DNA from: Pseudobacter ginsenosidimutans
GTDB lineage: Bacteria > Bacteroidota > Bacteroidia > Chitinophagales > Chitinophagaceae
DNA length: 64,000 nt
Direction of reading: 5' to 3'
Assembly: GCF_007970185.1 (NCBI RefSeq)
Contig: NZ_CP042431.1
Span: 5,208,001-5,272,000 of the forward strand
Shown: positions 26,863 through 43,283 of the stretch, in pieces
How the letters are laid out: each line of letters begins with the position of its first letter
Numbering within the stretch: the stretch's first letter is position 1
Notes under the pieces: generated by a model
Told to the model about the DNA's origin: nothing
Seen by the model: only the letters and a program-made list of their open reading frames with translations
Database searches by the model: none
Translations under genes and position numbers: made by a program

Positions 26863-27022
26863 GCCAATCCTAAAATTCAGTAACCCCGCAACAGGCGTTC
26901 CCCAATTTTTCCGGGTAAAACCCCGGTAATGATGGTAAAAAAGTATATTCTTGCATTTATTACTCAACCCATGCAAGTTCGTCCCGGAAAACGCATCGTA
27001 TGCTTCCGGATACTGGTGGATC

Positions 27023-27634
27023 ATGACAGGAAGCGCTTCTACATATCAGCAATTGGATAACAAGGATCTCTTTGCCATGGTGGCAGCAGGTGATGAAGCT
27101 GCGTTCAGACAACTCTTCAATAAATTCCTCCCGGAAATTGGTTCGGCCATCAAAAGTGTTGTTCATTCCGAAACAGCAACAAAAGATATCATCCAGGAAG
27201 TATTCATTCAGATATGGATCTCCAGGGATAAACTCACAGCAGTGGACCTTCCCAGGAACTGGCTTTTCCAGGTTACCTATTTTTTATCCTACAAATGGCT
27301 CAGGAGTCAGAAGAACCAGGAAAAGCTGCAATCGGGATTGCAGCAGGTAAGCCATTCTGATAATTCCAATGCAGTGTGGGAACAACTTGATTTCAATGAA
27401 ACCACCCGACTGATCAGGGAAGCAGTAGTGCTGCTGCCTGAAAAAGCGAAGAAGATCTATACACTCAGCCGGGAAAAAAATCTGAAGATCAGCGAGATCG
27501 CTGTAACCCTGGGCATCTCGGAACAGACTGTCAAGAACTCATTGACACGTTCCTTATCCAGCATCCGCGAACACCTGCTGGCACACGGAATTTCCATTCC
27601 AGTATTTATTCTCTGTTTTTTTTCAAACCAATAG
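27023..27634 (+). CDS. ECF RNA polymerase sigma-70 factor (locus 2)
   Basis: 203 residues from the ATG at 27023; the open frame reaches back to 26951, but that extra part does not look coding. Region 2 appears as LFAMVAAGDEAAFRQLFNKF and TKDIIQEVFIQIWISRD, region 4 as LPEKAKKIYTLSREKNLKISEIAVTLG with GISEQTVKNSLTRSL. The last residues (IPVFILCFFS) are hydrophobic. It is followed 67 bases on by fecR and then an STN-type susC, so it should drive this locus when the receptor is occupied. Confidence 0.93.
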   Translation: MTGSASTYQQLDNKDLFAMVAAGDEAAFRQLFNKFLPEIGSAIKSVVHSETATKDIIQEVFIQIWISRDKLTAVDLPRNWLFQVTYFLSYKWLRSQKNQEKLQSGLQQVSHSDNSNAVWEQLDFNETTRLIREAVVLLPEKAKKIYTLSREKNLKISEIAVTLGISEQTVKNSLTRSLSSIREHLLAHGISIPVFILCFFSNQ

Positions 27635-27701: not shown

Positions 27702-28916
27702 TTGGAACACAGGATTGATCATTTATTGAATAAACTGTCGGAGAACTCGGCAACAGAGGCTGACTGGAACGAACTGTTAGATGCGATCCGGAATGATCAT
27801 TCCGGAGAAGTGATCGCAGGCATTGAACAGTTTAAGAACAGGAAGGCAGATGTGAAAGGGTTTGATCCGGAAACGCCTGAATGGGACGATGTTTTCAAAA
27901 GGGCCGTGGCTGCAGACAAACCGGAACAGTCAGCAACCGGAAAACTGAGGCGCATCCATATCATGCGGTGGACGGCCGCTGCTGCCGTGGTACTGTTATC
28001 GTTGGTGTCGGTTCTTTATTTCCTGCTACCGGAAAATAAACAAGTGGCGCCGACAAACAAACAGATCACTATCATCAACCCTGGTTCTGAAGGCGCGGTT
28101 CTTACATTGGCAGATGGTGTACAAATGGTGATTGATACAACCCTGAATGGTGTTGTTGCTGCACAGAACGGAAGTGAGGTGGTGGTAGCTGACGGCGCTA
28201 TGCGCTATCGCCCGCAGGAAGGGAAACAAGGACTGGTGGAATACAATACCATGACCACTCCAACAGGGAAACAATTCCAGTTCACGCTTCCCGACGGCAC
28301 AAAGGTTTGGCTGAACGCAGCGAGTTCAATAAAATATCCTACGAGTTTCAAAGGAAACACAAGGGAAGTGGAAGTGAGTGGTGAAGCATATTTTGATGTA
28401 ACACACAATGCAAAGCAGCCATTCATTGTGCAGGCAGGCAAGGATGCCAGGATAGAAGTGCTGGGAACATCCTTTAATGTGAACGCCTACCCGGATGAGC
28501 AGGATATCAGAACAACACTGGAAAGTGGACTGGTCATGATAAGGGCCACAGGCCATAACCGGTCTGCCAACACAATAAAAGAAACCCTCTTAAAACCAGG
28601 ACAGCAGGCCGTTGTAGCGGTTCTGAGTAATGGCAGTAAAGAAAAAGGGATCACTATCAATACTGAAGTGAAGATAGAAAAAGTCACTGCTTGGAAAAAA
28701 GGTCTTTTCAATTTTGAAGGCTCCAGCCTGGTTGAAGTGATGAAGGAGCTGGAAAGATGGTACAATATCGAAGTTGTGTATGAAGGTGCACCGCCAACAA
28801 TGAAGTTCTATGGGAAGATCGGTAAGCAACTTCCGCTGAACGATCTGCTGGAAGTGCTGGACAAATCGAAAGTAAAATTTATGATCGAAGGAAGAAAACT
28901 GATCGTTAAACCATAA
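27702..28916 (+). CDS. FecR family anti-sigma factor (locus 2)
   Basis: 404 residues from a TTG start at 27702; no ATG is found in frame before the membrane helix, and MEHRIDHLLNKLSENS is a usual FecR beginning. One membrane segment lies at about 89-108. The periplasmic FecR domain shows FTLPDGTKVWLNAASSIKYPTSFKG, GEAYFDVTHNAKQPF and VLGTSFNVNAYPDEQDIRTTL, and the tail (LVEVMKELERWYNIEVVYEG) is the STN-like interaction domain. It controls the preceding sigma factor and senses the SusC receptor downstream. Confidence 0.94.
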   Translation: MEHRIDHLLNKLSENSATEADWNELLDAIRNDHSGEVIAGIEQFKNRKADVKGFDPETPEWDDVFKRAVAADKPEQSATGKLRRIHIMRWTAAAAVVLLSLVSVLYFLLPENKQVAPTNKQITIINPGSEGAVLTLADGVQMVIDTTLNGVVAAQNGSEVVVADGAMRYRPQEGKQGLVEYNTMTTPTGKQFQFTLPDGTKVWLNAASSIKYPTSFKGNTREVEVSGEAYFDVTHNAKQPFIVQAGKDARIEVLGTSFNVNAYPDEQDIRTTLESGLVMIRATGHNRSANTIKETLLKPGQQAVVAVLSNGSKEKGITINTEVKIEKVTAWKKGLFNFEGSSLVEVMKELERWYNIEVVYEGAPPTMKFYGKIGKQLPLNDLLEVLDKSKVKFMIEGRKLIVKP

Positions 28917-29073: not shown

Positions 29074-32000
29074 ATGACAAAAACTGCTTTTGAGTGCGCT
29101 GACCATTTATTCCCTGAACTGAACCACCTTAAACATGGTAACCTGTCAGGTGGTATTAAATGGCGGCGGACCCTAACCAAAACTCTGGTCATGAAACTGG
29201 CTATTTTCTTACTGACTGCTGCACTCTTCCAGGCCCGGGGCAATTTGCTGGCCCAGAAAGTGACTATCTCCGGGAAGTCGATCACCCTGAAACAGGTATT
29301 CGATGCCATCGAGAAACAAACAGACTTTGTTGTTTTTTCCAATGAGAGTTTTCTGAAGAACACAAAACCTGTTTCCATTACCGTACATGATGTTTCTGTA
29401 TCGGAACTGCTGGAGCTGGTATTGAAAGATCAGCCGGTGCAATTCTCCATCAAATACAATACGATATTTCTCAGTCCCAGGGCTGAATCGAAACCAGGGC
29501 CGGTTCCTGCGCTCCTTCAGTCTACAGCTCCTCCGTTGATCATTCAGGGAGCTTTGCGATCTGCTGAAGGAGAAATCTTATCCGGCGCTTCGGTGAGGGT
29601 GAAACAATCCGGACATGGTGCCATTACAGATAGCAAGGGGAGTTTCCAGTTGAAAACCGATGAGGAGTCGCCCGTTTTGCAGATCACGATGGTTGGTTAT
29701 GAAATGGTGGAAGCGGTGCTCAAAAAAACAGCTTCAGGCTATGATGTGGCAAAGGTTACCGGTGGCATCTTCACCATTAACAACAATGCACCAGGCAATA
29801 TCCAGATCAACATAGCGATGAAGAAGGCAGCCAGTATGCTTGATGAAACGCAGATCACGGCCTATGGAAAAACCAACAGGCGAATGGCAACGGGCAATAT
29901 CGGTACTGTTACTGCTGAAGAGATCGAAAGACAGCCTGTAATGACAGCGCTCGAAGCCATCATCGGAAGAGTACCGGGAGTAGAGGTAAAACAAGTGTCG
30001 GGCAATAGTGCAGCTCCAATGTCTATTACGATCAGGGGAGGCAAATCTATCAACAGTTCGGCGAATAATGACCCTTTGTATGTAATCGATGGCATTCCAA
30101 TGAATAACCTGAATGCAAATTTTTTGCTTGAAGGATCCGGTTTTAGTATAGGGTCAGTGCAGGGCGGAATGGTGAATACCCTCAGAGGTGAAAATATGCT
30201 GCTGGGTATCAATCCTGGAGATATCGAAAGCATCAGCATTCTCAAAGATGCGGATGCAACAGCTATTTATGGTTCAAGAGGTTCCAATGGCGTTATTCTG
30301 ATCACTACTAAAAAAGCCAAACAGGGACCAACCCGCTTTGCATTAAGTGTGAATAATGGTACAAAATCGATTCAACGCTATCCAACGCTATTGCATACAG
30401 CAGAGTACCTGGCCATCAGAAGAGAAGCGTTCAGGAATGATGGGATCACGCCAACCAGGGACAATGCGCCTGATCTCACAATATGGGATCAGAACAAATA
30501 TACCGACTGGCAGAAAACCATGGTCGGAACTGGCTCTATGACCACTATCAATGCTGATGTCAGCGGCGGTATGCGTCAAACCACTTACAGGCTTTCTGCC
30601 AGCTACACTACGCAGAAAGAGATCATGAACAATGGAGGCAAAAATCTGCGGGGTACGTTCATGTCTGCCATCAACCATACCAGCACTGATCAGAAATTTA
30701 ATTTTACACTCAGCAATTCGCTGGCACTAACAGAAGTGAAAGCATATAATCTGAAAGACTTCGGCAACATGGCTCCCAATGCCCCGGATATTTATAATTC
30801 AAAAGGGGAGTTCAATTTTGAGCCATACAGAATCCAGGGCAGGTCTGATTTTGCTTTTAACGGATTGAAATCGCCCAGCGAAAGTCAAACATATTTCTCC
30901 AATAATACCATGTACCTGAGTTATGAAATTCTCCGCGGATTGAGTATTTCCACCAGGGCAGGATATCAGTTCTCCAATAACAGTAACGCTAATTACACCC
31001 CACCATCATCCATCGATCAAACCATCCAGCCTCAGCCTTTCTCGTCAATGGCATATTATGGCAGCTCTTCCATCAAAAACCTGCAGGTGGAACCACAATT
31101 GAAATACAGAACCAATGTTGGAAGAGGGGTGCTGGATGTTCAATTGATTGCCACCTGGCAATCTGCTCAAACACGCAGTACCACTATCATTGCACAGAAT
31201 TTCCCCAACGATGCCATGCTGAAAAGCTATAACAATGCAGCCACTGTTGATCCAACTGATAATTATATTGCCTACAAATACCTTTCCGCAGCAGCTATTA
31301 TCCGATATGAGTGGGACAGAAAATATATAGTAAACCTGAATGGCAGAAGAGATGGTTCATCGCGCTTTGGACCTGGTAAGCAATTCGGCAACTTTGGCTC
31401 CGTTGGATTGGCATGGATAGTTTCCGAAGAGAACTGGCTGAAAACATTGCTTCCTTCATGGATAAGCCTGCTCAAGTTAAGAGGAAGTTATGGAATCACC
31501 GGGAGTGACAGAATGAGAGACTATGAGTATTTGTCACGCTGGTCAAAGAACGCATCTTTGATTTCTTCAAGGTCTGTGTATCCATACGATGGCATAACAT
31601 CCTTCCATGTGCTCACTCCTTTGAATCAGCAATTCCAATGGGAATCGAACAGGAAGTCAGAAATAGGAGCCAGTGTCAGTTTCCTGAAAGATAAAATGAA
31701 CCTGGAAGTTGTGTATTACTCAGAACTATCCGGCAATCAGTTAACTACTTTACCTATTCCACGTATGTCGGGTTTTGAAAAAACAGCCAAAAACTGGCCC
31801 GCAGAAATACGCAATTCAGGTATTGAGATTTCAGCAAATGCCAGACTGCTGCAATCAAATAACTGGGGGCTTGATGTAGGATTTAATATCGGACGCAATA
31901 GAAATAAAGTGATCCATTTTCCTGATTTTGAAAACTCATCTTATTATGGACAGTTGAAAGTTGGCTATTCCACCTCCACTGTATTCGCTTTGCGGTACAC

Positions 32001-32601
32001 TGGTATCGATCCGCTGACCGGCTCCTATACTTTTGAAGACTACAATAAAGACGGAGTAATCTATAAGGACGCAAACGCTTTCCCTACCAGTAATACAGAT
32101 GATCGCTACCTGGCTATTGAAACCATGCCCAAATTTACAGGAGGCTTTTCCCTGAACCTTAGTTACAAAACTTTGAGGCTACACTCCAGTTTCGCGTTCA
32201 AAAACGGATTAAGGGTTGATCCGTATATAAATACTGTTCCCGGTGACATGACCAATTTTGTGTTAACCAATGAAATCAGGAACAACCATTGGAAAAATCC
32301 GGGCGATGCTGCCAGATATCCAAGGTATACCACCAGCAAATCAACACTTGGTCCTATCGAGTATTCCGACGCCAATTACACGAATGGCTCTTATGTACGA
32401 CTGACCAACCTGAGCATTGCCTGGAGTATCCCATCTGAATGGATCAGCAAGATCAGGATTAAAAATGCAACCTTCTCGATTCAGGCTCAAAACCTGTTTG
32501 TACTGTCGCCCTATAAAGGACTGGATCCGGAAATATCAACTTTTTATATGACCACCCCGGTTCCCAGAACGATCACTACCAATCTTTCATTTAATTTTTA
32601 A
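29074..32601 (+). CDS. SusC/RagA family TonB-linked outer-membrane protein with STN signalling domain (locus 2)
   Basis: 1175 residues. A 39-residue leader precedes the hydrophobic signal MKLAIFLLTAALFQARGNLLAQ, so the Met at 29191 is an alternative start. Next come an STN domain (about 62-134), a carboxypeptidase-regulatory-like domain (about 150-260), a plug with ISILKDADATAIYGSRGSNGVILI, and a beta-barrel ending TTNLSFNF. The plug carries extra residues between YVIDGIPMNN and INPGDIE. Role: TonB-powered import of an unknown ligand plus signalling to FecR. It is followed two bases later by susD and then by a lipoprotein and ABC genes rather than carbohydrate enzymes. Confidence 0.95.
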   Translation: MTKTAFECADHLFPELNHLKHGNLSGGIKWRRTLTKTLVMKLAIFLLTAALFQARGNLLAQKVTISGKSITLKQVFDAIEKQTDFVVFSNESFLKNTKPVSITVHDVSVSELLELVLKDQPVQFSIKYNTIFLSPRAESKPGPVPALLQSTAPPLIIQGALRSAEGEILSGASVRVKQSGHGAITDSKGSFQLKTDEESPVLQITMVGYEMVEAVLKKTASGYDVAKVTGGIFTINNNAPGNIQINIAMKKAASMLDETQITAYGKTNRRMATGNIGTVTAEEIERQPVMTALEAIIGRVPGVEVKQVSGNSAAPMSITIRGGKSINSSANNDPLYVIDGIPMNNLNANFLLEGSGFSIGSVQGGMVNTLRGENMLLGINPGDIESISILKDADATAIYGSRGSNGVILITTKKAKQGPTRFALSVNNGTKSIQRYPTLLHTAEYLAIRREAFRNDGITPTRDNAPDLTIWDQNKYTDWQKTMVGTGSMTTINADVSGGMRQTTYRLSASYTTQKEIMNNGGKNLRGTFMSAINHTSTDQKFNFTLSNSLALTEVKAYNLKDFGNMAPNAPDIYNSKGEFNFEPYRIQGRSDFAFNGLKSPSESQTYFSNNTMYLSYEILRGLSISTRAGYQFSNNSNANYTPPSSIDQTIQPQPFSSMAYYGSSSIKNLQVEPQLKYRTNVGRGVLDVQLIATWQSAQTRSTTIIAQNFPNDAMLKSYNNAATVDPTDNYIAYKYLSAAAIIRYEWDRKYIVNLNGRRDGSSRFGPGKQFGNFGSVGLAWIVSEENWLKTLLPSWISLLKLRGSYGITGSDRMRDYEYLSRWSKNASLISSRSVYPYDGITSFHVLTPLNQQFQWESNRKSEIGASVSFLKDKMNLEVVYYSELSGNQLTTLPIPRMSGFEKTAKNWPAEIRNSGIEISANARLLQSNNWGLDVGFNIGRNRNKVIHFPDFENSSYYGQLKVGYSTSTVFALRYTGIDPLTGSYTFEDYNKDGVIYKDANAFPTSNTDDRYLAIETMPKFTGGFSLNLSYKTLRLHSSFAFKNGLRVDPYINTVPGDMTNFVLTNEIRNNHWKNPGDAARYPRYTTSKSTLGPIEYSDANYTNGSYVRLTNLSIAWSIPSEWISKIRIKNATFSIQAQNLFVLSPYKGLDPEISTFYMTTPVPRTITTNLSFNF

Positions 32602-32602
32602 A

Positions 32603-34057
32603 ATGAAGATCATGCGAAACAAAAGCAACATATCAACCCTCTGCCTGATCGTATTATCGATGGCTATATCATCCTGTAATAAATTGCTGGAAGTACCGCC
32701 ACCCATCAACAGCATTACCACGGAAGAAGTTTTTAGTAATAATGCACAGGCTGAATGGACATTGGCAGCCATCTATTCAAAAATGATCAATGGTTACAAT
32801 ACCAGCACTAGAAGCACTACCATTACAGAAGAAATATTTTCATCAGGATTAGCAACAATCCTGGGCGGACTTTCTGCTGATGAACTGACTTATCCTGTGG
32901 TGCTTGCCAACCCCAATTATATCGCTTTCAGCAACAAGCTCACAGTAGCCAACAGTGATAAAACGTCAAAGATCTGGAACTCTGCTTACCGGTTCATCTT
33001 CGATGCCAATGCTGCTATTGCAGGGCTGAGTGCAGCTACTGCCCTTACAGACAGTGTGAAAAAGCAATTGACCGGAGAAGCACTGGCGCTGCGGGCATTC
33101 TGTTATTTTTATCTGGTCAATTTCTTTGGTGATGTTCCTTTGATGTTGAATCCAGACTTCCACGAAGCACAGAATTTTGCCAGAACCCCTACCGCAAAAG
33201 TGTATACGCAGATAAAAAAAGACCTGGTGGATGCCAAGGCAATGCTGGCAGGTGATTATTCAGTCAGTAATAATGAAAGAATAAGAGCGAACAAATGGTT
33301 TGCAGAGGCAATGCTCGCAAGGGTGTATCTCTATACCGGAGAATACCAGCTGGCCATTAACAGCGCTACAGCAGTGATCAACCATACTTCATTATTTACC
33401 GTGGAGCAGGATCTCACCAAAACCTTTCTGCCCAATAACACTGAAGCCATTCTGCAACTCAAGCCGGCCAAAGAAAATACGGGTATCGTAAATGGAACTC
33501 CGGAAGGCTATACATTGTACACTGCTCCCGTGAACAATGGACCCTATAACCGGACTTTCGAGATCAGTACACAACTGGCAAATGCCTTTGAAGCAAATGA
33601 CCTGCGGAAAACAACCTGGACTGTTCCTGCAGGTACAGCTTCGGTTTCTTCAAAATATACCCGGAACCAGCGTGTGCAATATTATAATGTGATCCGGTTA
33701 GCTGAATTACACCTGATCAGGGCGGAAGCCATTGCCCGTCATGTACCGGGCAACAAATCTGCTGCCATCGAAGATATCAATGTGCTCCGAAGAAGAGCAG
33801 GAGTAACCGAACTTGATGAACAGCTTACTGCAGAACAGGTGATCGATGCCGTTGCCCACGAACGACAGGTAGAATTATTCCTTGAGTGGGGCCATCGCTG
33901 GTTGGATCTCAAAAGAACAGGCAAGGCAGGCACTGTGCTGGGCGCAATTCCTGCGAAGCAGCCCTGGTGGGGAGATTATCAATTGCTGTATCCGATTCCG
34001 GCATACGAAATAAGAAACAACAGCCACCTGCAGCAAAACCCTGAATACAATCTCTAG
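32603..34057 (+). CDS. SusD/RagB family outer-membrane lipoprotein (locus 2)
   Basis: 484 residues. The lipobox is AISSCNKLLEV. TPR-like helices (LTGEALALRAFCYFYLVNFFGDVPL), the C-terminal RLAELHLIRAEAIAR and ERQVELFLEWGHRWLDLKRTG motifs, and the ending YPIPAYEIRNN are standard SusD. A second Met four codons in is an alternative start. It starts two bases after the susC stop codon and should form the lid of that channel. Confidence 0.95.
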   Translation: MKIMRNKSNISTLCLIVLSMAISSCNKLLEVPPPINSITTEEVFSNNAQAEWTLAAIYSKMINGYNTSTRSTTITEEIFSSGLATILGGLSADELTYPVVLANPNYIAFSNKLTVANSDKTSKIWNSAYRFIFDANAAIAGLSAATALTDSVKKQLTGEALALRAFCYFYLVNFFGDVPLMLNPDFHEAQNFARTPTAKVYTQIKKDLVDAKAMLAGDYSVSNNERIRANKWFAEAMLARVYLYTGEYQLAINSATAVINHTSLFTVEQDLTKTFLPNNTEAILQLKPAKENTGIVNGTPEGYTLYTAPVNNGPYNRTFEISTQLANAFEANDLRKTTWTVPAGTASVSSKYTRNQRVQYYNVIRLAELHLIRAEAIARHVPGNKSAAIEDINVLRRRAGVTELDEQLTAEQVIDAVAHERQVELFLEWGHRWLDLKRTGKAGTVLGAIPAKQPWWGDYQLLYPIPAYEIRNNSHLQQNPEYNL

Positions 34058-34098: not shown

Positions 34099-34893
34099 AT
34101 GATCTCCACATATTGCAAGCGTAACCGGTCAGCTAATGGCCGGAACAGGATCTTTATTTTATTTCCTTTCCTGGCCATATTGCTCATCACCAGCTCCTGC
34201 AAAAAGAATCGGTTCGATGGAAATCCTGCCACCGTACAAGTTTTCAATGCGATGGATGATGGTATTTCTTTCTATACTTACCTGGGAAACAAGCGGCCTG
34301 CATTGTTTAAAACATCACTGGAGATCAGGAATAAAAGCTACGAACAGAAAAACAATCTCCTGTATATAAGTAGTTTTCCGCAACAGATCGATTTCTATGC
34401 GAAGCCTGACACGATGCCTCACGACCAGCCTGCACTGTCGATGCTGGCTGAGTTGAAAGACGGAGCAATGTATTCTCTGTTTATTCATGGAGAAAAATCA
34501 GCACCCGCATTTTCCCTGTTCCAGGATATTATCCCTGCCATCAACTGGCAGGACAGTACCTCCCATATTCGCATTGCCAACTTCAGTGAATCACAGGCGA
34601 TCAGTGTGAACATAAAAGGGGAGGCCGAAGGAAGCCTGGTTCAAAACCTGCCCTATAAATCACTGTCGGATTTCATTGAACGCAGCGCAGGTAAATCTGT
34701 AGCAGGTTATGAGTTCGAGATCAGGAACCAGGCTACAGGTGAACTGCTTGCCAGTTATGCAACATCAGGTTTGTATCCGCTGGATGGTACACCTAATCTA
34801 TGGCTCGGCAAATCGAATACACTTGTATTTACCGGTAAGTACGGAGCGGCCTATCCCAATCAGCAAACAATCACTCTTATGAACCACAGGTAA
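34099..34893 (+). CDS. DUF4397-like surface lipoprotein
   Basis: 264 residues. The signal (FILFPFLAILLITSSC) ends in a lipobox Cys. The beta-rich body (ATVQVFNAMDDGISFYTYLG, HIRIANFSESQAISVNIKG, AMYSLFIHGEKSAPAF) resembles DUF4397, a lipoprotein family common after SusC/SusD. No catalytic residues are seen. It links the SusC/D part of the locus to the ABC part and probably sits on the outer membrane. Confidence 0.7.
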   Translation: MISTYCKRNRSANGRNRIFILFPFLAILLITSSCKKNRFDGNPATVQVFNAMDDGISFYTYLGNKRPALFKTSLEIRNKSYEQKNNLLYISSFPQQIDFYAKPDTMPHDQPALSMLAELKDGAMYSLFIHGEKSAPAFSLFQDIIPAINWQDSTSHIRIANFSESQAISVNIKGEAEGSLVQNLPYKSLSDFIERSAGKSVAGYEFEIRNQATGELLASYATSGLYPLDGTPNLWLGKSNTLVFTGKYGAAYPNQQTITLMNHR

Positions 34894-34934: not shown

Positions 34935-35855
34935 ATGAGCATCGTATTAAAAGTGGAGAAACTCTCCCACAGGTATGCTACTGCCTGGGCTATCCGTGAT
35001 ATCAATTTCGAGATCAGTCAAAATGGTGTGATCGGTTTGCTCGGCTCCAATGGAGCCGGCAAATCAACCACCATGAATATCATTTGTGGTGTACTGAATC
35101 AAACGGAAGGCGACGTATACATCAATGGCATCAACAAAAGAGAGCAACCCAAACTCGCTAAAAAACAGCTGGGTTTTCTGCCACAGACACCACCACTGTA
35201 TACAGATTTTACCGTGAATGAATACCTTACCTACACGGCTGATCTGCGTTTTATCGAAAAGAAGCAGGTGAAACGTTCTGTTGACGAAGTGATGGACAGG
35301 GTAGGCATCACCCATTTCAGTTCGAGGCTCATCAAAAACCTGTCAGGTGGCTACAAACAAAGAGTGGGCATTGCACAGGCCATCATTCACAAACCCAGTA
35401 TCGTGATACTTGATGAACCTACCACCGGCCTCGATCCCAACCAGATCATCGAAGCGAGAAAACTGATCAGGGAAATTTCTCAGGACCATACCATCTTATT
35501 GTCTTCCCACGTACTGTCTGAGATCAATTTGTTATGCCGGGATATTATTATGATCGAAGGAGGAAGAATGGTGTTCTCCGACTCCATGGAATCTTTCAAC
35601 AATTATATTCAGCCCAGTGCCGTACTGGTTCGGATGGAGAATGCACCACCAGAGGCTGAATTGCTGAAAATTAACGGTGTCACAAAAGTGCAGTCGCTCT
35701 CCGACAAGCAATACAGGATCTATTTCAGTGGCAATAATTCAATTTCAGAATCCATCATCGCCGCAAGTATGCAGCAGAACTGGAAACTCACTGAGATCAA
35801 TCTGGAAAGATCCATGCTGGATGATGTGTTCAAACAATTATCACAAAATTCCTAA
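34935..35855 (+). CDS. ABC transporter ATP-binding protein, GldA-like
   Basis: 306 residues, one ABC domain. Walker A is GSNGAGKST (residues 37-45), the signature is LSGGYKQRVGIAQ, and Walker B is VILDEPTTGLDP, with a switch His in LLSSHVLSE. The C-terminal 80 residues match the extension of the GldA/CcmA group. In gliding Bacteroidota, GldA works with GldF and GldG. Here the next gene, 11 bases on, encodes a fused GldF-GldG, and a second fusion lies at 40858. One ATPase may serve both permeases. Confidence 0.92.
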   Translation: MSIVLKVEKLSHRYATAWAIRDINFEISQNGVIGLLGSNGAGKSTTMNIICGVLNQTEGDVYINGINKREQPKLAKKQLGFLPQTPPLYTDFTVNEYLTYTADLRFIEKKQVKRSVDEVMDRVGITHFSSRLIKNLSGGYKQRVGIAQAIIHKPSIVILDEPTTGLDPNQIIEARKLIREISQDHTILLSSHVLSEINLLCRDIIMIEGGRMVFSDSMESFNNYIQPSAVLVRMENAPPEAELLKINGVTKVQSLSDKQYRIYFSGNNSISESIIAASMQQNWKLTEINLERSMLDDVFKQLSQNS

Positions 35856-35866
35856 AGCGGGCATCG

Positions 35867-38188
35867 ATGAAAATAATATATAAGATTGCAAAAGCAGAGT
35901 TGAGAAACCTGTTCTATTCTCCTGTGGCCTGGTTTGTGATATTCCTGTTCTTCCTGACTGTATCTCTCATTTTTACCAAATCGCTGGATTTTATCAGCAA
36001 TATGCAGGAAGCAATGTCTGACCTGGACAGCAACTGGTCTGGGATCGACTCCAGCATAAGCAGCATGCTGTTCGACAATATAACGGATACGGGCAATCAG
36101 TATTTTTATCTTTTCATTCCCTTACTCACCATGGGACTGATCAACCGGGAGATCAGCAATGGTACCATCAGGTTGCTGTATTCCTCTCCCGTTACCACCC
36201 GCGAAATTGTGTTGGGTAAATACCTGGGGATCGTACTCTTCAATATGTTGCTGATTGGTATTATCGCCATTTTCCTGCTGGCATCCACAACATTGATACC
36301 GGCGGCTGAATTCAAGCTGGCCCTGTCGATCATATTCATGTATTTCCTGATGGTGAATGCCATGGCAGCGATCGGTTTGTTCATATCCTGCTTAACGGGT
36401 TACCAGATTGTAGCTGCTATCATCACTTTTGCTGTATTCTATCTGCTGGCCAACATCTCCAACCTCTGGCAGCAATATGATCTGATCCGGGATATCACAC
36501 ATTACCTTGCCATCACCCGCAAAGGAAGCAATCTGCTGAAAGGGCTCATAACCAGCAGGGATATTATTTACTTTTTGATGGTGATCAGCCTCTTCCTGGG
36601 TTATACCATGATCAGGCTGAAAAATACACAGCAACCGCAAAGCTGGTCCATGAATGCATTCAGGTATGCATCACTCACGCTCATCGTTATTATTGTGGGG
36701 TACTTCACTTCCAGACCAGGTTATATCGCCTATTACGATGCCACCAACCGGCAAACCAATACACTCCACCCTGCTATTCAGGAAACCATCAAAGAAATGG
36801 ACGGATCACCATTGACAGTTACACTGTATACGAATTTGCTGGATGGAAATGCAACAAGCCATGGACTGCCACAAAACCGGAATACATATATCTGGGAAGT
36901 CTGGGAACCCTATATCAGGTTCTATCCCAATATCAAATTCAGGTATGAATATTATTATGATGTAACGCAAAGGAACCATGATTTTTATACCAGGAAATAT
37001 CCGGGTAAATCACTGGAGGAGATCGTAGCGATTGAAGCAGAAATGCTGGAGATCCGCCCGTCCATTTTCAAAACGCCGGAGGAGATGAGGAAAATAATCA
37101 ACCTCATGCCCGAAGACGTGCATTTGGTGATGCAACTGGAGTATAAAGGGAAAAAAGAATTTCTGAGAACATACGAAGGGAACAGTCCCTGGCCATTACC
37201 AAACCATTTTGCGGCTACTTTCAAAAGACTGACCCGCCATAAAGAAGTTAAGATGGCATTTGTAACCGGGCATTATGAACGGAATATATTGAGCTGGGCA
37301 GGAAGAGAGTTTGGCTGGAATACCACCAGCAAGAAAGGGAAAAGGGCATTGATCAATGAAGGAGTGGATGCTGATACCATCTCGCTGCTCCATCAGGAAA
37401 TACCATCCGGCATCGATGCATTGGTGGTAGCAGACCCTAAATCACCCTATAGTCAGGAAGAACAGCAAAAGCTCATTGACTATCTCAGGAAAGGTGGTAA
37501 TGCTGTCTTCTTTACGGAAATAAAGAAGCAGTTCATACTGGCGCCCGTTCTTCAATCCATTGGCGTATATCCGGAAAACGGCGTCATTGTCAGACCAGAC
37601 AAACATGAAATGCCGCATATTTTCCAAACGATGCTGACAGACAGTGGTAATTACCTCGCAAAGGAACTCGTTATGGAAAACTTCCAGCGTTACAGGAAGG
37701 GCGGCGCATATGTGATGAATGAGGGAGCGCTGAACCTCAGCTACCAGGAAATCGATGGCTTCAAAATAGAGCCCATCATCAGTAAGTCCGGCAACGATGG
37801 TACCTGGATCGAAAACGGATTGCTCACGGTAGATTCGGCCCCACCTGTATTCTCTCCGGTTGAAGGCGATATCAAAAAAAACGAGTATGTCATTGGCCTG
37901 AAACTTTCCCGGAAAATCGGCAATAAGGAACAAAGGATCATTGTAACCGGTGATGCGGATTTTATGACAAGTACCCGTGGACGCAAGGGCGGACATAATC
38001 TTGCCTTGTACAGCTGGCCGCTTTACAACCAATATCCCGTATATGGTAACCTCGCGGAACCTGAAGACAGGATGGTGAAAATTTCCAATCACAAAGCCAG
38101 GCTGCTCACCCTCATTGCAGCTTATGGATGCTCCGCGCTGTTACTGTTGTTCGCCATCGTATTACTGGTTCGCAGAAAAAGAAAGTAA
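35867..38188 (+). CDS. Fused GldF-like permease and GldG-like periplasmic domain, copy 1
   Basis: 773 residues. The N-terminal 240 or so residues form an ABC-2 permease with six membrane helices (starting AELRNLFYSPVAWFVIF; TTREIVLGKYLGIVLFN is the typical GldF loop). A further helix near 265-285 leads into a GldG/ABC_transp_aux-type periplasmic domain (PLTVTLYTNLLDG, VAFVTGHYERN-type segment, IDYLRKGGNAVFFTE), and a last helix ends in RRKRK. In Flavobacterium these are two proteins; here they are one chain. Substrate unknown. A paralogue with the same layout lies at 40858-43167. Confidence 0.9.
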   Translation: MKIIYKIAKAELRNLFYSPVAWFVIFLFFLTVSLIFTKSLDFISNMQEAMSDLDSNWSGIDSSISSMLFDNITDTGNQYFYLFIPLLTMGLINREISNGTIRLLYSSPVTTREIVLGKYLGIVLFNMLLIGIIAIFLLASTTLIPAAEFKLALSIIFMYFLMVNAMAAIGLFISCLTGYQIVAAIITFAVFYLLANISNLWQQYDLIRDITHYLAITRKGSNLLKGLITSRDIIYFLMVISLFLGYTMIRLKNTQQPQSWSMNAFRYASLTLIVIIVGYFTSRPGYIAYYDATNRQTNTLHPAIQETIKEMDGSPLTVTLYTNLLDGNATSHGLPQNRNTYIWEVWEPYIRFYPNIKFRYEYYYDVTQRNHDFYTRKYPGKSLEEIVAIEAEMLEIRPSIFKTPEEMRKIINLMPEDVHLVMQLEYKGKKEFLRTYEGNSPWPLPNHFAATFKRLTRHKEVKMAFVTGHYERNILSWAGREFGWNTTSKKGKRALINEGVDADTISLLHQEIPSGIDALVVADPKSPYSQEEQQKLIDYLRKGGNAVFFTEIKKQFILAPVLQSIGVYPENGVIVRPDKHEMPHIFQTMLTDSGNYLAKELVMENFQRYRKGGAYVMNEGALNLSYQEIDGFKIEPIISKSGNDGTWIENGLLTVDSAPPVFSPVEGDIKKNEYVIGLKLSRKIGNKEQRIIVTGDADFMTSTRGRKGGHNLALYSWPLYNQYPVYGNLAEPEDRMVKISNHKARLLTLIAAYGCSALLLLFAIVLLVRRKRK

Positions 38189-38219
38189 TCATCTAACAGT
38201 CACCTATAAATATTTCATC

Positions 38220-39503
38220 ATGTTCCTCACGGATGATCAAACCATTGAAGACCTCCGGCTGTTTGCTAAAAGAGAAAGGACTGGTATCTATGATATCTAC
38301 AACAATACTTCCACACGCGGTGGTGAAATATTGCTGGGCAATATGTTCAGAAATCCATTGTCCGATCTGCAGGCTATAACCAAACGCTCCACTGCCATTT
38401 CTGCGTTTGCCCGGCTGCAAACAGCTTTCCCATTCAATCCCGGCCTGCTGGATAGTGTGGAGAAATACATCTTGCAGGATGAAGTGAATCACACACAGAA
38501 AGGAGTACTGGGAGAAAAGGAGATCAGTGCCGGCGTAACGGCGCTGATCGAACTGCTGCATGCCATCAGAAATTTTCTGGAATCAGGCTCCATCGTTCAG
38601 GTGCCCATGCTGGATGAAGAAAGAAAAGAAACCTTACAAATACTGTTACACGCTTCCCTCGAACCGATATTCAGAGAGAAGCCCGGCCATAAACTGAGTT
38701 TCGGAGCATTGACCGCCTTCGATGTTTTGCTGCGCATGAAAGAGCGGGAGAAAGTAATGGAAGTGCTCAATTTCATTTATCTGCTGGATGTTTATATCTC
38801 TGTTGCACAGGTGGCCAATAAAAGGAAGTTCGTGTTTCCCGTGGCGTATTCCAAAGGCAGTAATGTTTTGAAAGTGGAGGGAGTGTATCATCCTGAACTA
38901 AAAAATCCTGTTGCGAACGACCTGCACATGCACACCGGAAAATCAGTAGTATTCCTCACAGGAGCGAATATGGCCGGTAAATCCACTTTCCTGCGTTCAT
39001 TCAGTACTGCTGTGTATGTAGCGCATATGGGCTTTCCTGTAGCTGCTCAGCGTCTTGAGTTTTCAGTGATGGATGGCGTGCTAACCACCATCAACCTGCC
39101 CGATAATTTAGGCATTGGTGCTTCTCATTTTTATGCAGAAGTATTGCGGGTGAAGAAAGTTGCTACGGAACTGCATGCAGGAAAATCACTGTTTGTACTT
39201 TTCGATGAACTGTTCAGAGGCACCAACGTAAAAGATGCACACGAAGGAACCGTGGCGGTGACGAAAGCATTTGCCGGGAAAAAAGACAGCCTCTTTTTGA
39301 TCTCATCGCATATCGTAGAAGCAGGAGATGAGCTGAAACAAAAAAACAATATCGGTTTTCATTTCCTCCCAACACGTATGAACGGAACTGTCCCCGAATA
39401 TACATACACGTTGCAAGAAGGCATCACCGATGATCGCCACGGCATGATCATCATCCATAACGAAGGAATATTGGAAACATTAAAAAACGGACGCAAATCA
39501 TGA
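38220..39503 (+). CDS. MutS-like ATPase without mismatch-recognition domain
   Basis: 427 residues from the ATG at 38220. The frame reaches back to 38115, but that part overlaps the GldFG gene and is not needed. The N-terminal 200 residues are helical and correspond to the MutS lever/core. The ATPase domain has Walker A TGANMAGKSTFLRSF (G248-T256), a segment LPDNLGIGASHFYAEVLRVK, Walker B VLFDELFRGTN (D329, E330), and ISSHIVEAGDEL. Domain I of MutS, which carries the FxE mismatch-reading motif, is missing, so ordinary mismatch repair is unlikely. It starts 31 bases after the GldFG gene and overlaps the next MutS-like gene by 4 bases (ATGA). Confidence 0.88.
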   Translation: MFLTDDQTIEDLRLFAKRERTGIYDIYNNTSTRGGEILLGNMFRNPLSDLQAITKRSTAISAFARLQTAFPFNPGLLDSVEKYILQDEVNHTQKGVLGEKEISAGVTALIELLHAIRNFLESGSIVQVPMLDEERKETLQILLHASLEPIFREKPGHKLSFGALTAFDVLLRMKEREKVMEVLNFIYLLDVYISVAQVANKRKFVFPVAYSKGSNVLKVEGVYHPELKNPVANDLHMHTGKSVVFLTGANMAGKSTFLRSFSTAVYVAHMGFPVAAQRLEFSVMDGVLTTINLPDNLGIGASHFYAEVLRVKKVATELHAGKSLFVLFDELFRGTNVKDAHEGTVAVTKAFAGKKDSLFLISSHIVEAGDELKQKNNIGFHFLPTRMNGTVPEYTYTLQEGITDDRHGMIIIHNEGILETLKNGRKS

Positions 39504-40815
39504 GTTTTACTATAGACAGACAGTCGCAGGACGAATTAAACCTGATGGGAAAGTTCAGACAGGGGTCAGTGTACTTCCTGTTCAATCAGGTTAAATCACG
39601 CGGGGGGAACAGCTGCTCGAAAGACTGTACAAAAATCCGCTGACCAACGCGCAGGCTATCAACGAAAGAAGCAGCATTTTCTCTTTCTTTCAGAAGGCTG
39701 AATTGCAATGGCCATTTGATGCACAGCAAGTGCAGCAAATGCAGGAGTACACAGATGCCAGCAGTGGAAAAGGACAATTGTTCAATTACCTGCATATCAT
39801 CGTCAGAAAATCATTGGCTGCGCTCACCCGTGATGAGCGATACAAAAAACTCATTCAGGGTTTACAGGCCACCATCGTTACCCTTAAGAAATGCCAGTCG
39901 ATCGTGGAGTTGCTATATCAACAACCCGGGCCTTACCAGTCCAGAGCTGCTACGATGAGAACGGTGCTCAGCCAGGCAACTTTCACACAACTGATAGAAA
40001 CAGATATTTATGCCGCGATCTCTGTAAAGAAACTTGCAGAGTACGATCATTTGCTGAAAAGCAAACTCAGCAATGATATACGTATACTGCTTCAGTTCAT
40101 TGCGGAACTCGATGTCAATATTGCTGTTGGCCGGGTAGCTGCAAAAAATGGTCTTGCATGGGCGCATGCACAGCCTGAAGAAGCCAATATTTTCAATGCT
40201 ACCAACCTCAGGCATCCCTGTATTGAGAAAGCGATCGGTAACGATATCGCCATGCAGGCAAAGAGCAATGTGGTTTTTCTCACCGGGGCCAATATGGCCG
40301 GTAAATCTACCTGGATGAAAACCATCGGCATCTCTGTGTACCTCGCCCATATCGGATTTCCGGTAGCGGCAGATACCATGGAGTTTTCTGTAAGAGAAGG
40401 CATTTATTCCAGTATCAACGTGGCGGATAATATCGCACTTGGCTACAGCCATTTTTATGCAGAAGTGGTGCGGGTGAAAAATGCTGCTGATGCTACAGCC
40501 ACCGGAAAGCATCTGCTGCTGATGTTTGATGAATTGTTCAAAGGCACGAATGTGAAAGATGCATTCGATGGCACCCTGGCCGTAACAGAAGCTTTTGCTG
40601 AATACAGGAACTGTCTGTTCATCGTGAGTACGCATATCATTGAAGTGGGAGAGAAGCTGACAAACAAACCAAATATTCAATTCAAATTTATGCCCACTGT
40701 GCTGGAAGGAAGCGTACCACGATATACTTACCAACTCAAAGACGGTATCACAGAAGACAGACAGGGCATGATGATCATCAGCAATGAAGGTATCCTGCAG
40801 CTGATTGAAGGGTAA
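39500..40815 (+). pseudogene. Second MutS-like ATPase, frameshifted at a G6 run
   Basis: The ATG at 39500 overlaps the stop of the first MutS-like gene. Translation runs MSFTIDRQSQDELNLMGKFR to the six G at 39602-39607 and then meets a stop at about 39642. One extra G would continue it as GEQLLERLYKNPLTNAQA, which aligns with GEILLGNMFRNPLSDLQA of the first copy. The rest is a full MutS-like ATPase: Walker A TGANMAGKSTWMKTI, Walker B MFDELFKGTN, VSTHIIEVGEKL. The intact product would have about 438 residues; in the sequence as given, a restart near 39703 would give 370. Real slippage and a sequencing error are both possible. Confidence 0.8.
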
Positions 40816-40857
40816 ATGCCCATCCTCCATAAACTATCATAGTAATAAAAGAAAACA

Positions 40858-43167
40858 ATGAAAATAATTTTCAAGATTGCCCGGGCGGAGCTGAGGAACC
40901 TGTTCTATTCTCCGATTGCATGGGTTACCCTCGTGGTGTTTTTTGTGATCAGCGGAATGCAATTCATCAACCCGCTGAGAACGATGGCTATCCAACAGGA
41001 ATTGTTACAAGCCAACAGTCCCGGTTGGAACGGGTTCAGAGGCCCGCTGACCTTTGCTTTGTTCAACGATACCATCAAGCACATGTTGCAATATCTGTAT
41101 TTCTTCCTGCCCCTGCTCACCATGGGAGTGATCAACCGGGAAGTGAATTCAGGCACCATGAAACTGTTGAATTCTTCTCCCGTAAGTATCCGGGAGATTG
41201 TGATGGGTAAATTTCTGGGACTCACCGGATTCAACCTCGCACTGATGTCGGTGATCGCTCTCATGCTGTTCACGGGTTACTTCACCATTCAGCATGCAGA
41301 GTTTGCGTGGTACTGTTCCATGTTGTTAGGGTTCTTTCTGCTCACCAGCACTTATATGGCCATCGGCCTGTATATTTCTACGCTTACCAGTTACCAGATC
41401 GTGGCGGGTATTGCTACTTTCTTCGCATTCATCATACTTGGAATGATGGGAAAAATCGGACAGGAATATGATCTCTTCAGAGATATCACCTGGTTCATTT
41501 CACTCGCAGGCAGAACCGATTTTATGTTCAACGGCCTCATCACTACCAGAGATCTGTTCTATTTTCTGCTGGTGATTGTGCTCTTCCTTGGATTGACCAC
41601 ACTTAAACTGAAAAGTTTGCAGGAGTCGAAAAAATGGACGGTTTCCTTTACGAGACACCTACTATTGATCCTGACAGTACTGACCCTGGGATATTTCAGT
41701 TCCAGACCTGGCCATATAGGCTATCTGGACGTTACCAGTAACAAATTGAATACGCTTGACTCCACCACTCAGGGTGTGTTGAAAGAACTCGACGGATCTC
41801 CTCTTACCGTAACCCTTTATGCAAATTTACTGGGACGCGGTTACGACGCAGGATCGCCGGCATCCAGGAATGCCTATATCTGGGGCTTCTGGGAAAAATA
41901 CATCCGCTTCTATCCGAACATACAATTCAAATACGAATATTATTATGATATAAAAAAAGGAGATAGCGGTTTATTCAAAAGTTATCCGGGCAAAACAATC
42001 CATCAGATCGCCAAACAGGTAGCCAGGATGTTTAAGGTTGACCTGGCAGATTTAAAAAAACCAGGAGCCATCGACACCATGACAGATCTCAGCAGGGAAG
42101 ATCAGTGGAAACTGATCATGGAGTTGGAGTACAAAGGGAATAAATCACTTTTGCGAATCTATGATATGCCGATCTGGCCAGATCCATCACATGTTTCAGC
42201 CAGCATCCGCAAACTGACCAGGAATAATATTCCCAAAGTGATGTTTACTACAGGTAATTGGGAACGCAGCCCCTGGAGAAATGGCGAAAGAGAATATGGA
42301 TTGCATACCAATCTTCAGGCTAAGCGAGAAGCCATGACGAATATGGGCCTGGACGCCGATACCATTTCTTTATTGCGCCATGATATTCCAGCCAATACAA
42401 AATTACTGGCAGTTGCCGATCCCCGTTCGGCCCTCCAGCCATCGGAGCAAGAAAAAATCCTTCAATATATCGAGAATGGCGGTAATGCAATTTTTTACGG
42501 TGAAGCAGGAAAGCAGCAAATCCTTAACCCGATATTGAACACCATGGGTGTTACATTGGAGAATGGAAGACTGGTTAGGCCCCACCTTCACGCAGCATCG
42601 GATGCATTCAGGCTGATGCTGAACAAGGCCGGTGTTTACCTGGCCCAAACTTCCTATATGCAGTCGGCACAAAAATTCGGGGTAGAGAAAGCAGCTCCTA
42701 ATGCTGTTTTTTCAGGATTTTGCGATATCAGTTTTAAGGACACGAATGGATTCAAAATAGAACCGATCATTCAAATGCCTGGTGCGAAAAATATCTGGAT
42801 TGAAAATGGTTTATACGTAGCAGACTCGGCTAAACCAATTTTTTCCCCGGAAGAAGGTGATCTGCAAAAAGAAGTTTACACCATCGGTCTAAAACTGACC
42901 CGGATGATCAACAACAAAGAACAACGGATCATCGTAACAAGTGACGCCGATTTTATGACCGTAATTAACTCCATTGAATTGGGGTTGTACAGCTGGCTGG
43001 TGTATAATGAATACCCGGTGTACATTCCAAATATTTATCACAAAGACAGATGGCTGACCATCGGAAAAAATCCGGCTAAAGTACTATGGTACGTTTATGC
43101 GTATGGATTGCCTGGTTTGCTGTTACTCACAGGAACCATTTTGCTGATCAGAAGAAAAAGAAAGTAA
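40858..43167 (+). CDS. Fused GldF-like permease and GldG-like periplasmic domain, copy 2
   Basis: 769 residues, the same plan as the 35867 gene: KIIFKIARAELRNLFYSPIAW, six N-terminal helices, the IREIVMGKFLGLTGFN loop, a GldG-type periplasmic domain (GSPLTVTLYANLLGRG, ILQYIENGGNAIFYGE) and a C-terminal helix ending RRKRK. The two copies align over their whole length with many substitutions, so the duplication is not recent. It has no ATPase gene of its own; it may pair with copy 1 as a heterodimer driven by the GldA-like protein. It is the last gene before a strong terminator. Confidence 0.9.
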   Translation: MKIIFKIARAELRNLFYSPIAWVTLVVFFVISGMQFINPLRTMAIQQELLQANSPGWNGFRGPLTFALFNDTIKHMLQYLYFFLPLLTMGVINREVNSGTMKLLNSSPVSIREIVMGKFLGLTGFNLALMSVIALMLFTGYFTIQHAEFAWYCSMLLGFFLLTSTYMAIGLYISTLTSYQIVAGIATFFAFIILGMMGKIGQEYDLFRDITWFISLAGRTDFMFNGLITTRDLFYFLLVIVLFLGLTTLKLKSLQESKKWTVSFTRHLLLILTVLTLGYFSSRPGHIGYLDVTSNKLNTLDSTTQGVLKELDGSPLTVTLYANLLGRGYDAGSPASRNAYIWGFWEKYIRFYPNIQFKYEYYYDIKKGDSGLFKSYPGKTIHQIAKQVARMFKVDLADLKKPGAIDTMTDLSREDQWKLIMELEYKGNKSLLRIYDMPIWPDPSHVSASIRKLTRNNIPKVMFTTGNWERSPWRNGEREYGLHTNLQAKREAMTNMGLDADTISLLRHDIPANTKLLAVADPRSALQPSEQEKILQYIENGGNAIFYGEAGKQQILNPILNTMGVTLENGRLVRPHLHAASDAFRLMLNKAGVYLAQTSYMQSAQKFGVEKAAPNAVFSGFCDISFKDTNGFKIEPIIQMPGAKNIWIENGLYVADSAKPIFSPEEGDLQKEVYTIGLKLTRMINNKEQRIIVTSDADFMTVINSIELGLYSWLVYNEYPVYIPNIYHKDRWLTIGKNPAKVLWYVYAYGLPGLLLLTGTILLIRRKRK

Positions 43168-43202
43168 TAGCCATAAAAACCAATGCCTGACATGAAGCAT
43201 GG

Positions 43203-43237
43203 AAACCCGCTCACTCCGGTGATTGCGGGTTTTTTTG
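43203..43237 (+). terminator. Terminator of the sigma-SusCD-ABC-MutS run
   Basis: AAACCCGC ... GCGGGTTT with an inner TCAC/GTGA pairing, followed by seven T. It lies 36 bases after the stop of the second GldFG gene. Confidence 0.85.
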
Positions 43238-43283
43238 TATCCTAATAAAATCCCCAAAAAATAAACCTAACTCAACAACTGAA

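Follow-up and report, generated by a model that had tools for sequence, protein, structure and literature searches.

MutS-fold ATPase pairs in repeated SusC-SusD and GldA-GldFG cassettes of Pseudobacter ginsenosidimutans

Why would an operon for an outer-membrane receptor and an ATP-binding cassette (ABC) transporter encode two ATPases of the MutS fold? The question is raised by a 64,000-nucleotide stretch of the Pseudobacter ginsenosidimutans genome (contig NZ_CP042431.1, positions 5,208,001 to 5,272,000), here called the window, in which two short MutS-like proteins, MutA and MutB, are encoded together with a SusC-SusD receptor (SusCD), a GldA-like ATPase, and fusions of the GldF-GldG type (GldFG). 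We found that this cassette is one of 56 paralogous pairs in its host genome, a larger finding than the original prediction for this locus had recorded. Our results suggest that the MutS fold, known from DNA repair, has been recruited for membrane transport. With moderate confidence, we propose that a MutS-fold heterodimer serves the GldA-GldFG transporter of SusCD systems and does not act in mismatch repair.

The host genome, a single contig of 7,797,595 bases, contains 117 matches to MutS domain V above the cut-off. All but five of these form adjacent same-strand pairs (112 matches, 56 pairs); the five single matches are MutS (a frame of 910 amino acids, aa), a probable MutS2 (716 aa), and three further frames, 600, 445, and 198 aa in length. 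We took the 20 kb surrounding each of 55 pairs and of three singles, used the window itself for its own pair, and annotated the cassettes with profiles made from the window proteins and their paralogues. In 55 of the 56 pairs, the upstream genes include GldA, SusC, and SusD. GldFG lies within 1.6 kb upstream of MutA in the same number and directly adjoins it in 54; at one locus (L021), a thioredoxin-like gene is inserted between the two. FecR is present in 42 cassettes, and a relative of the DUF4397-like gene stands upstream in 27. The exception to this order is L027, in which MutA-MutB-sigma-FecR-SusC-SusD is followed by GldA-GldFG on the same strand (in L122), and in which the SusC and SusD frames appear broken. 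The predicted placement of the MutS pair between two GldFG genes is true in the window, as listed below, and is not general: two GldFG genes occur in 26 of the 56 cassettes, and GldFG lies downstream of MutB in only 10. Median gaps between the profile hits for SusC-SusD, GldA-GldFG, GldFG-MutA, and MutA-MutB are 10 to 18 bases, and the cassette is therefore likely to be transcribed as one unit. The window operon comprises the following features, beginning with an extracytoplasmic function (ECF) sigma factor.

26951-27634 (likely start 27038), + strand: ECF sigma factor (PF08281, 4.7e-12; PF04542, 2e-6)
27702-28916, + strand: FecR-type anti-sigma factor (PF04773, 2.9e-19; PF16344, 9.7e-16)
29074-32601, + strand: SusC/RagA TonB-linked outer-membrane protein with an STN-like domain (TIGR04056, 628.9 bits, above the cut-off of 368.25)
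32603-34057, + strand: SusD family lipoprotein (PF07980, 2.8e-24; PF14322, 5.2e-24)
34099-34893, + strand: DUF4397-like lipoprotein, the variable slot of the cassette (PF14344, 25.2 bits, below the cut-off of 30.6)
34935-35855, + strand: GldA-like ABC transporter ATPase (PF00005, 1.2e-33; TIGR03522, 278.1 bits, below the cut-off of 402.6)
35867-38188, + strand: GldF-GldG-type fusion, ABC-2 permease plus ABC_transp_aux (PF12679, 3.6e-19; PF09822, 1.8e-14)
38220-39503, + strand: MutS-A (MutA), short MutS-fold ATPase, 427 aa (PF00488, 1.6e-24; PF05192, 1.2e-6)
39502-40815, + strand: MutS-B (MutB), short MutS-fold ATPase, frame broken (PF00488, 4e-27)
40858-43167, + strand: second GldF-GldG-type fusion (PF12679, 2.3e-15; PF09822, 5.2e-13)
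43200-43237, + strand: intrinsic terminator ending the operon (fold of 43185-43245)

What kind of MutS proteins are these? Both MutA and MutB match PF00488 (MutS domain V) and retain its ATPase motifs. In alignments of 63 of 79 MutA and 57 of 74 MutB sequences, from which some presumed near copies were omitted, GANMAGKST is found in every sequence of both proteins, FDELF in 59 MutA and all 57 MutB sequences, and GTNVKDA in 62 and 57, respectively; we take these to be the ATPase (Walker) motifs of MutS. The AlphaFold model of MutA (mean predicted local distance difference test score, pLDDT, 85.8) aligns with Escherichia coli MutS (1e3m_B) at Z 34.5 and a root-mean-square deviation (rmsd) of 4.2 over 388 residues. 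For MutB, we used a model of the closest named relative (L126; mean pLDDT 85.6), which aligns with the same chain at Z 35.3 and rmsd 3.2 over 385 residues. The MutS2 chain 7vuk_B gives Z 31.0 with MutA (rmsd 3.8, 363 aligned) and Z 34.3 with the L126 MutB (rmsd 2.9, 370 aligned), and MutS beta and MutS2 chains fall within a few Z of E. coli MutS for both models. The model alignments begin where domain III of MutS begins and extend through domain V, with residue 1 of the models aligned to E. coli MutS residue 263-266 (the proteins are 427 and 438 aa long), and neither MutS protein has a Pfam match to the mismatch-binding domain I or the connector domain II. MutA and MutB consist of MutS domains III and V; the mismatch domains are absent.

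The models also bear on the DNA clamp. Their longest helices are 27 aa in MutA and 29 aa in MutB. Taken at the level of the overall superpositions, the 388 and 385 aligned residues are spread over stretches of 538 and 516 residues in 1e3m_B, and therefore some 130 to 150 residues are missing. Judged by the domain limits of MutS, the missing part is probably the clamp (domain IV) with the lever ends; the clamp domain has no Pfam match in MutA or MutB. Curated profiles place the two proteins outside the named families, with 119.7 and 109.3 bits for MutS (cut-off 480), 59.2 and 76.5 bits for MutS2 (cut-off 400), and 97.9 and 110.4 bits for KamC (cut-off 300), and we rejected membership in all three families on these scores.

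The two MutS genes had been predicted to overlap by ATGA, and the overlapping start was confirmed; the second gene, however, is frameshifted. The MutB frame opens at the overlap and breaks at a run of six G at about 39602-39607, and the remainder to 40815 continues in another frame, so that the gene consists of two fragments in different frames. Frameshifts affect 21 of 410 well-covered cassette genes of the host genome, a count that omits sigma genes, DUF4397 genes, and poorly covered genes (looser rules list 23 breaks), and in-frame stops affect none. Two sets of relatives show 2 breaks in 242 genes (both in L101) and 6 in 483 (L162, L188, and L196). A genome-wide control with TIGR04056 scored 56 of 309 candidates, picked by score, which favors intact genes and makes the comparison unusable. 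An assembly with indel errors would explain the excess, and decay of some cassettes may be a source as well; the frame breaks may fit either a real lesion or an assembly error.

Whether the association extends beyond the host genome was decisive for the original prediction, and it does. We counted 37 pairs at 39 loci from relatives (L083-L121) and 77 pairs at 80 loci from named genomes (L126-L205); both sets were picked by their MutA match, share some places (L120 and L126, for instance), and do not count as independent samples. GldFG lies within 1.6 kb upstream of MutA in 35 of the 37 and 75 of the 77 pairs. GldA is upstream in 74 of the 77 named pairs, and among the 68 named pairs with more than 9 kb upstream, SusC and SusD are each found in 66. 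The named loci are the best 80 of 555 relatives from a scan of named genomes and are biased accordingly toward relatives of the window protein. They come from Pseudoflavitalea, Pseudobacter, Chitinophaga, Niastella, Niabella, Flavitalea, Arachidicoccus, Pedobacter, Sphingobacterium, and Mucilaginibacter, ten genera of the Chitinophagaceae and Sphingobacteriaceae in which the gene order recurs (names from record titles; some loci are from metagenome-assembled genomes). Pedobacter belongs to the Sphingobacteriaceae, as presumably do Sphingobacterium and Mucilaginibacter. Given 56 copies in the host and ten named genera, we rejected a chance neighborhood. Five relatives from the genus contain 8 to 56 MutA-like matches each, with MutA, MutB, and singles pooled.

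Broader draws of genomes bear on the co-occurrence of the two components. At most two to four candidates were scored per genome in the family and class surveys, which consequently report presence and not copy number. The window MutA was matched at 1e-65 in 38 of 394 family genomes, of which 32 have at least two matches, taken as pairs, and 6 have one weaker match; some appear to hold one pair only (two strong matches). The GldFG fusion was matched at 1e-40 in 35 of 394, namely, all 32 genomes with a MutS pair plus G148, G194, and G210. We took the two surveys, which have equal counts and equal handles and different thresholds, to cover the same 394 genomes: both components are found in 32, GldFG only in 3, the MutS pair only in none, and neither in 359 (Fisher p 5.5e-44, ignoring the relatedness of the genomes). 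In the class draw, 3 of 395 genomes match at 1e-75: the host, G511, with an adjacent MutS pair at a contig end, and G752, with a lone short MutS (L207) beside genes that resemble arginine biosynthesis by eye.

How do the parts of the cassette vary relative to one another? Median identity among the host cassettes is 24% for SusC, 25% for SusD, 41% for GldFG, 59% for MutA, 61% for MutB, and 65% for GldA. SusCD is far more divergent than GldA and the MutS pair; the receptors vary, and the GldA/MutS part is generic. Distance matrices, based on 55 to 56 cassettes for most genes (36 for sigma and 30 for FecR, whose rows are not reliable, since two families are mixed in cassettes that have a second sigma gene), split into a SusC-SusD block (r 0.89) and a GldA-GldFG-MutA-MutB block (0.69 to 0.88), with between-block correlations of 0.45 to 0.55 (MutS with SusCD, 0.45-0.53). 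Within the second block, r is 0.88 for MutA-MutB, 0.87 for GldA-GldFG, 0.79 for MutA-GldA, and 0.81 for MutB-GldA. Partial correlations over the 27 complete cassettes retain MutA-MutB (0.50), GldA-GldFG (0.64), and SusC-SusD (0.92), alongside weak values for GldFG-SusC (0.29), GldFG-SusD (-0.26), and MutB-SusD (0.22). Loci L054 and L061 share 88% identity in MutA and 84% in MutB versus 19% in SusC and 25% in SusD; receptor and module are exchangeable.

Gene fusions join MutA to MutB and, in one genome, a short MutS to an ABC ATPase. MutA and MutB occur in one reading frame at eight loci (L014, L103, L104, L106, L050, L105, L088, and L092), which, as judged from their source and sequence start, fall into what look like about four groups. 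A 703-aa protein of genome G388 (L099:7807-9918, - strand) is a fusion of an ABC transporter ATPase with a short MutS; its gene adjoins a MacB/FtsX permease and a pair that by eye looks two-component-like. MutA forms a group with support of 0.965 in a FastTree tree of 42 sequences, in which MutB is not one resolved group. Outside these sequences, short MutS-like proteins and the ABC-MutS fusion lie closest, followed by MutS and MutS2. One such short protein in the host genome (L013:12283-13596, 2722710 region) is a lone MutS-like protein of 437 aa beside dihydroorotase-like and aminopeptidase-like genes; lone proteins of this kind occur widely across the family, and the pairs may have arisen from them. 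Another MutS-like protein (L065:11802-13586, 594 aa) has hydrophobic, probably membrane-spanning stretches ahead of its MutS part, as judged by eye.

The lipoprotein slot gives hints about the substrate. We surveyed the slot at seven loci by a Pfam scan of 8 proteins, which included the product of the gene inserted in L021. The slot holds a Peptidase_Mx1-like protein in L012 (5.3e-5, below the cut-off), DUF4843 and PKD-like proteins in L011, an M16 peptidase in L058, and a DsbD_N-like protein in L034; the slot proteins of L048 and L010 have no Pfam match. A TlpA-like thioredoxin protein (named by eye) is encoded between MutA and MutB at L152, L175, L184, and L194. These contents hint at peptide or protein substrates.

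In the reading that we favor, the window would contain one copy of a repeated envelope-transport cassette. At the outer membrane would be the SusC-SusD receptor, in many cases accompanied by a dedicated sigma/anti-sigma pair and a variable lipoprotein, and at the inner membrane an ABC-2 transporter composed of the GldA-like ATPase and the GldFG permease with its GldG-type domain. MutA and MutB would form a heterodimer with paired ATP sites, for which the fusions offer indirect support, and would act with GldA-GldFG rather than on DNA. ATP-driven opening and closing of the pair could gate, recruit, or reset the transporter or its cytosolic cargo, and the transported substrate would perhaps be peptides. 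We regard the cassette as a functional unit because of the co-occurrence, the gene order, and the fusions. A putative action on a target other than mismatches, as in the original prediction, fits the absence of mismatch domains and the absence, among the surveyed genomes, of MutS pairs without GldFG. More tentatively, the pair could be a dedicated ATP-using gate or cargo clamp at the membrane, coupled to the ABC-2 transporter and to interchangeable SusCD receptors and unrelated to nucleic acids, a role at the membrane that would have expanded to 56 copies in one genome.

Several observations weigh against a link between the MutS pair and the transporter. In the 27 complete cassettes, MutS-GldA partial correlations are weak (0.29 for MutA and 0.16 for MutB), and those with GldFG are near zero (0.08 and 0.12). 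When nearest neighbors of MutA are compared across genes (n = 54), agreement is partial: 20 for MutB, 21 for GldFG, 17 for SusD, 15 for GldA, and 8 for SusC. The fusion of an ABC ATPase to MutS was found in just 1 of 384 family genomes, with two candidates scored in each. SusCD-GldA-GldFG occurs without an adjoining MutS pair at L122, L123, and L124 of the host genome (726758, 4684528, and 6414654), and, as described above, three surveyed genomes have GldFG without a MutS pair; because GldFG exists without MutS at three loci and in three genomes, MutS is not required for the transporter as such. Statistical support for a direct coupling of MutS to the transporter, and the case for its contact with GldA or GldFG, are so far weak. 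L122, L123, and L124 are natural controls for the contribution of the MutS pair.

Could the pair have another task? A reactivase or chaperone for GldA, GldFG, or the cargo, rather than a gate, would find a model in KamC as it is named in NCBIfam. KamC is among the best curated matches of both proteins, near the MutS score, but the scores are far under its cut-off, and no aminomutase was matched among the ten window proteins scanned, the cassette scanned for one being that of the window; we consider this role unlikely. Given its MutS fold and kept ATPase motifs, the pair might instead act on DNA, by steering how the repeated cassettes recombine or undergo gene conversion, or by repairing the locus. 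Loci L059 and L060, with 99% identity in MutA and 95% in MutB yet 49% in GldFG, could reflect gene conversion, and the mean net charge of the N-terminal part of MutB is +3.2. Whole proteins, however, average -0.5 and -0.7; they have no mismatch-reading domains, no model helix longer than 29 residues, and probably no clamp. Some genomes appear to hold a single pair, and none in the family draw holds a pair without GldFG. A role on DNA is therefore improbable in our judgment.

The pair might also be made up of passenger genes that entered one SusCD-ABC operon and were copied along without working with their neighbors. Duplication of whole cassettes keeps neighbors together, and the weak partial correlations and the GldA-GldFG loci without MutS agree with such a history. 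It fails to account for the conservation of the ATPase motifs in 63 and 57 sequences drawn from several genera, for the finding that no family genome surveyed has a MutS pair but no GldFG, for an association retained in the permuted order of L027, or for MutS and GldA-GldFG staying together where SusCD differs (L054/L061), and we think it highly improbable. Least probable of all is action on ribosomes in the manner of Bacillus subtilis MutS2, to help make the operon's large membrane proteins. The models resemble MutS2 (7vuk_B) nearly as well as MutS, and MutS2 is reported to split ribosomes using its ABC ATPase (PMC10897456). Against this role, MutA and MutB end after domain V and have no SMR match in the Pfam scan, and the linkage to GldFG would be left unexplained.

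Returning to the rest of the window operon, the predicted series of genes on one strand, from the sigma factor to the second GldFG, was borne out by Pfam and NCBIfam profile matches. The STN domain of SusC scores slightly under its Pfam cut-off (2.8e-6; 27.4 against 28.4 bits). Folding supports the single terminator predicted after the operon (-23.2 kcal/mol, z -4.1, equaled by 0 of 200 shuffles), although a simple terminator scan has none after 43167 in its output. The names GldA, GldF, and GldG fit the protein types but are loose, as all three curated scores lie under their cut-offs (GldF, TIGR03518, 77.0 against 288.5 bits; GldG, TIGR03521, 21.6 against 389.85 bits; GldA as listed), and we rejected identity with the gliding transporter for this reason. 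A known anti-phage defence system was not supported either: PADLOC models gave no match at 0.001 for either MutS protein, either GldFG fusion, or the lipoprotein; 11 models, with mad3 (2e-28) the best, match the GldA-like protein, as may happen with an ATPase. In 10 of the 56 host cassettes, a second ECF sigma factor is encoded near GldA; the two that were inspected (L048:4812-5519 and L057:7214-7921) have a hydrophobic stretch toward the C terminus. Upstream of the permuted cassette, L027:4165-10482 encodes a 2105-aa protein whose start looks secreted.

The component families are known; their combination is not described in the literature searched. Like SusC-SusD (RagA-RagB) uptake loci with ECF sigma and FecR, the cassette has the order sigma-FecR-SusC-SusD and clear SusC and SusD scores; unlike them, it adds the GldA-GldFG transporter and the MutS-fold pair to the operon, and none of the ten window proteins scanned (Pfam, NCBIfam) is a glycoside hydrolase. 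It has the same protein types as the GldA-GldF-GldG transporter of Bacteroidota, but its GldF and GldG are fused, score far below curated cut-offs, and occur in tens of copies in the host. MutA and MutB share domains III and V with bacterial MutS and, in the manner of the eukaryotic MutS alpha and beta heterodimers, would be two different subunits, here encoded together, although they lack domains I and II and probably the clamp, and their neighbors in the tree are short single MutS-like proteins. As in MutS2, the core fold comes without a mismatch domain, but the SMR match is missing and the proteins are encoded as a pair in transporter operons. KamC, for reactivation of lysine 5,6-aminomutase, is by its NCBIfam name only a precedent for a MutS fold acting on a protein; its score is similar, though far below the cut-off, the window cassette has no aminomutase, and we found no paper on it in the literature searched. 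In that literature, seen as titles and abstract openings and with most subscription journals outside it, we found no account of MutS-like proteins in SusCD or GldFG operons.

In this genome, a fold familiar from the repair of mismatches and the rescue of ribosomes appears regularly within a transport cassette, which is present 56 times. With some 12 kb taken up by each cassette between SusC and MutB, we estimate that the cassettes occupy near a tenth of the genome, and counts of repair genes from domain matches may mislead in such bacteria. A functional link to GldA-GldFG, if there is one, would give a role to a large unexplained share of the receptor repertoire and provide a tractable system for a MutS-type ATPase working without DNA.

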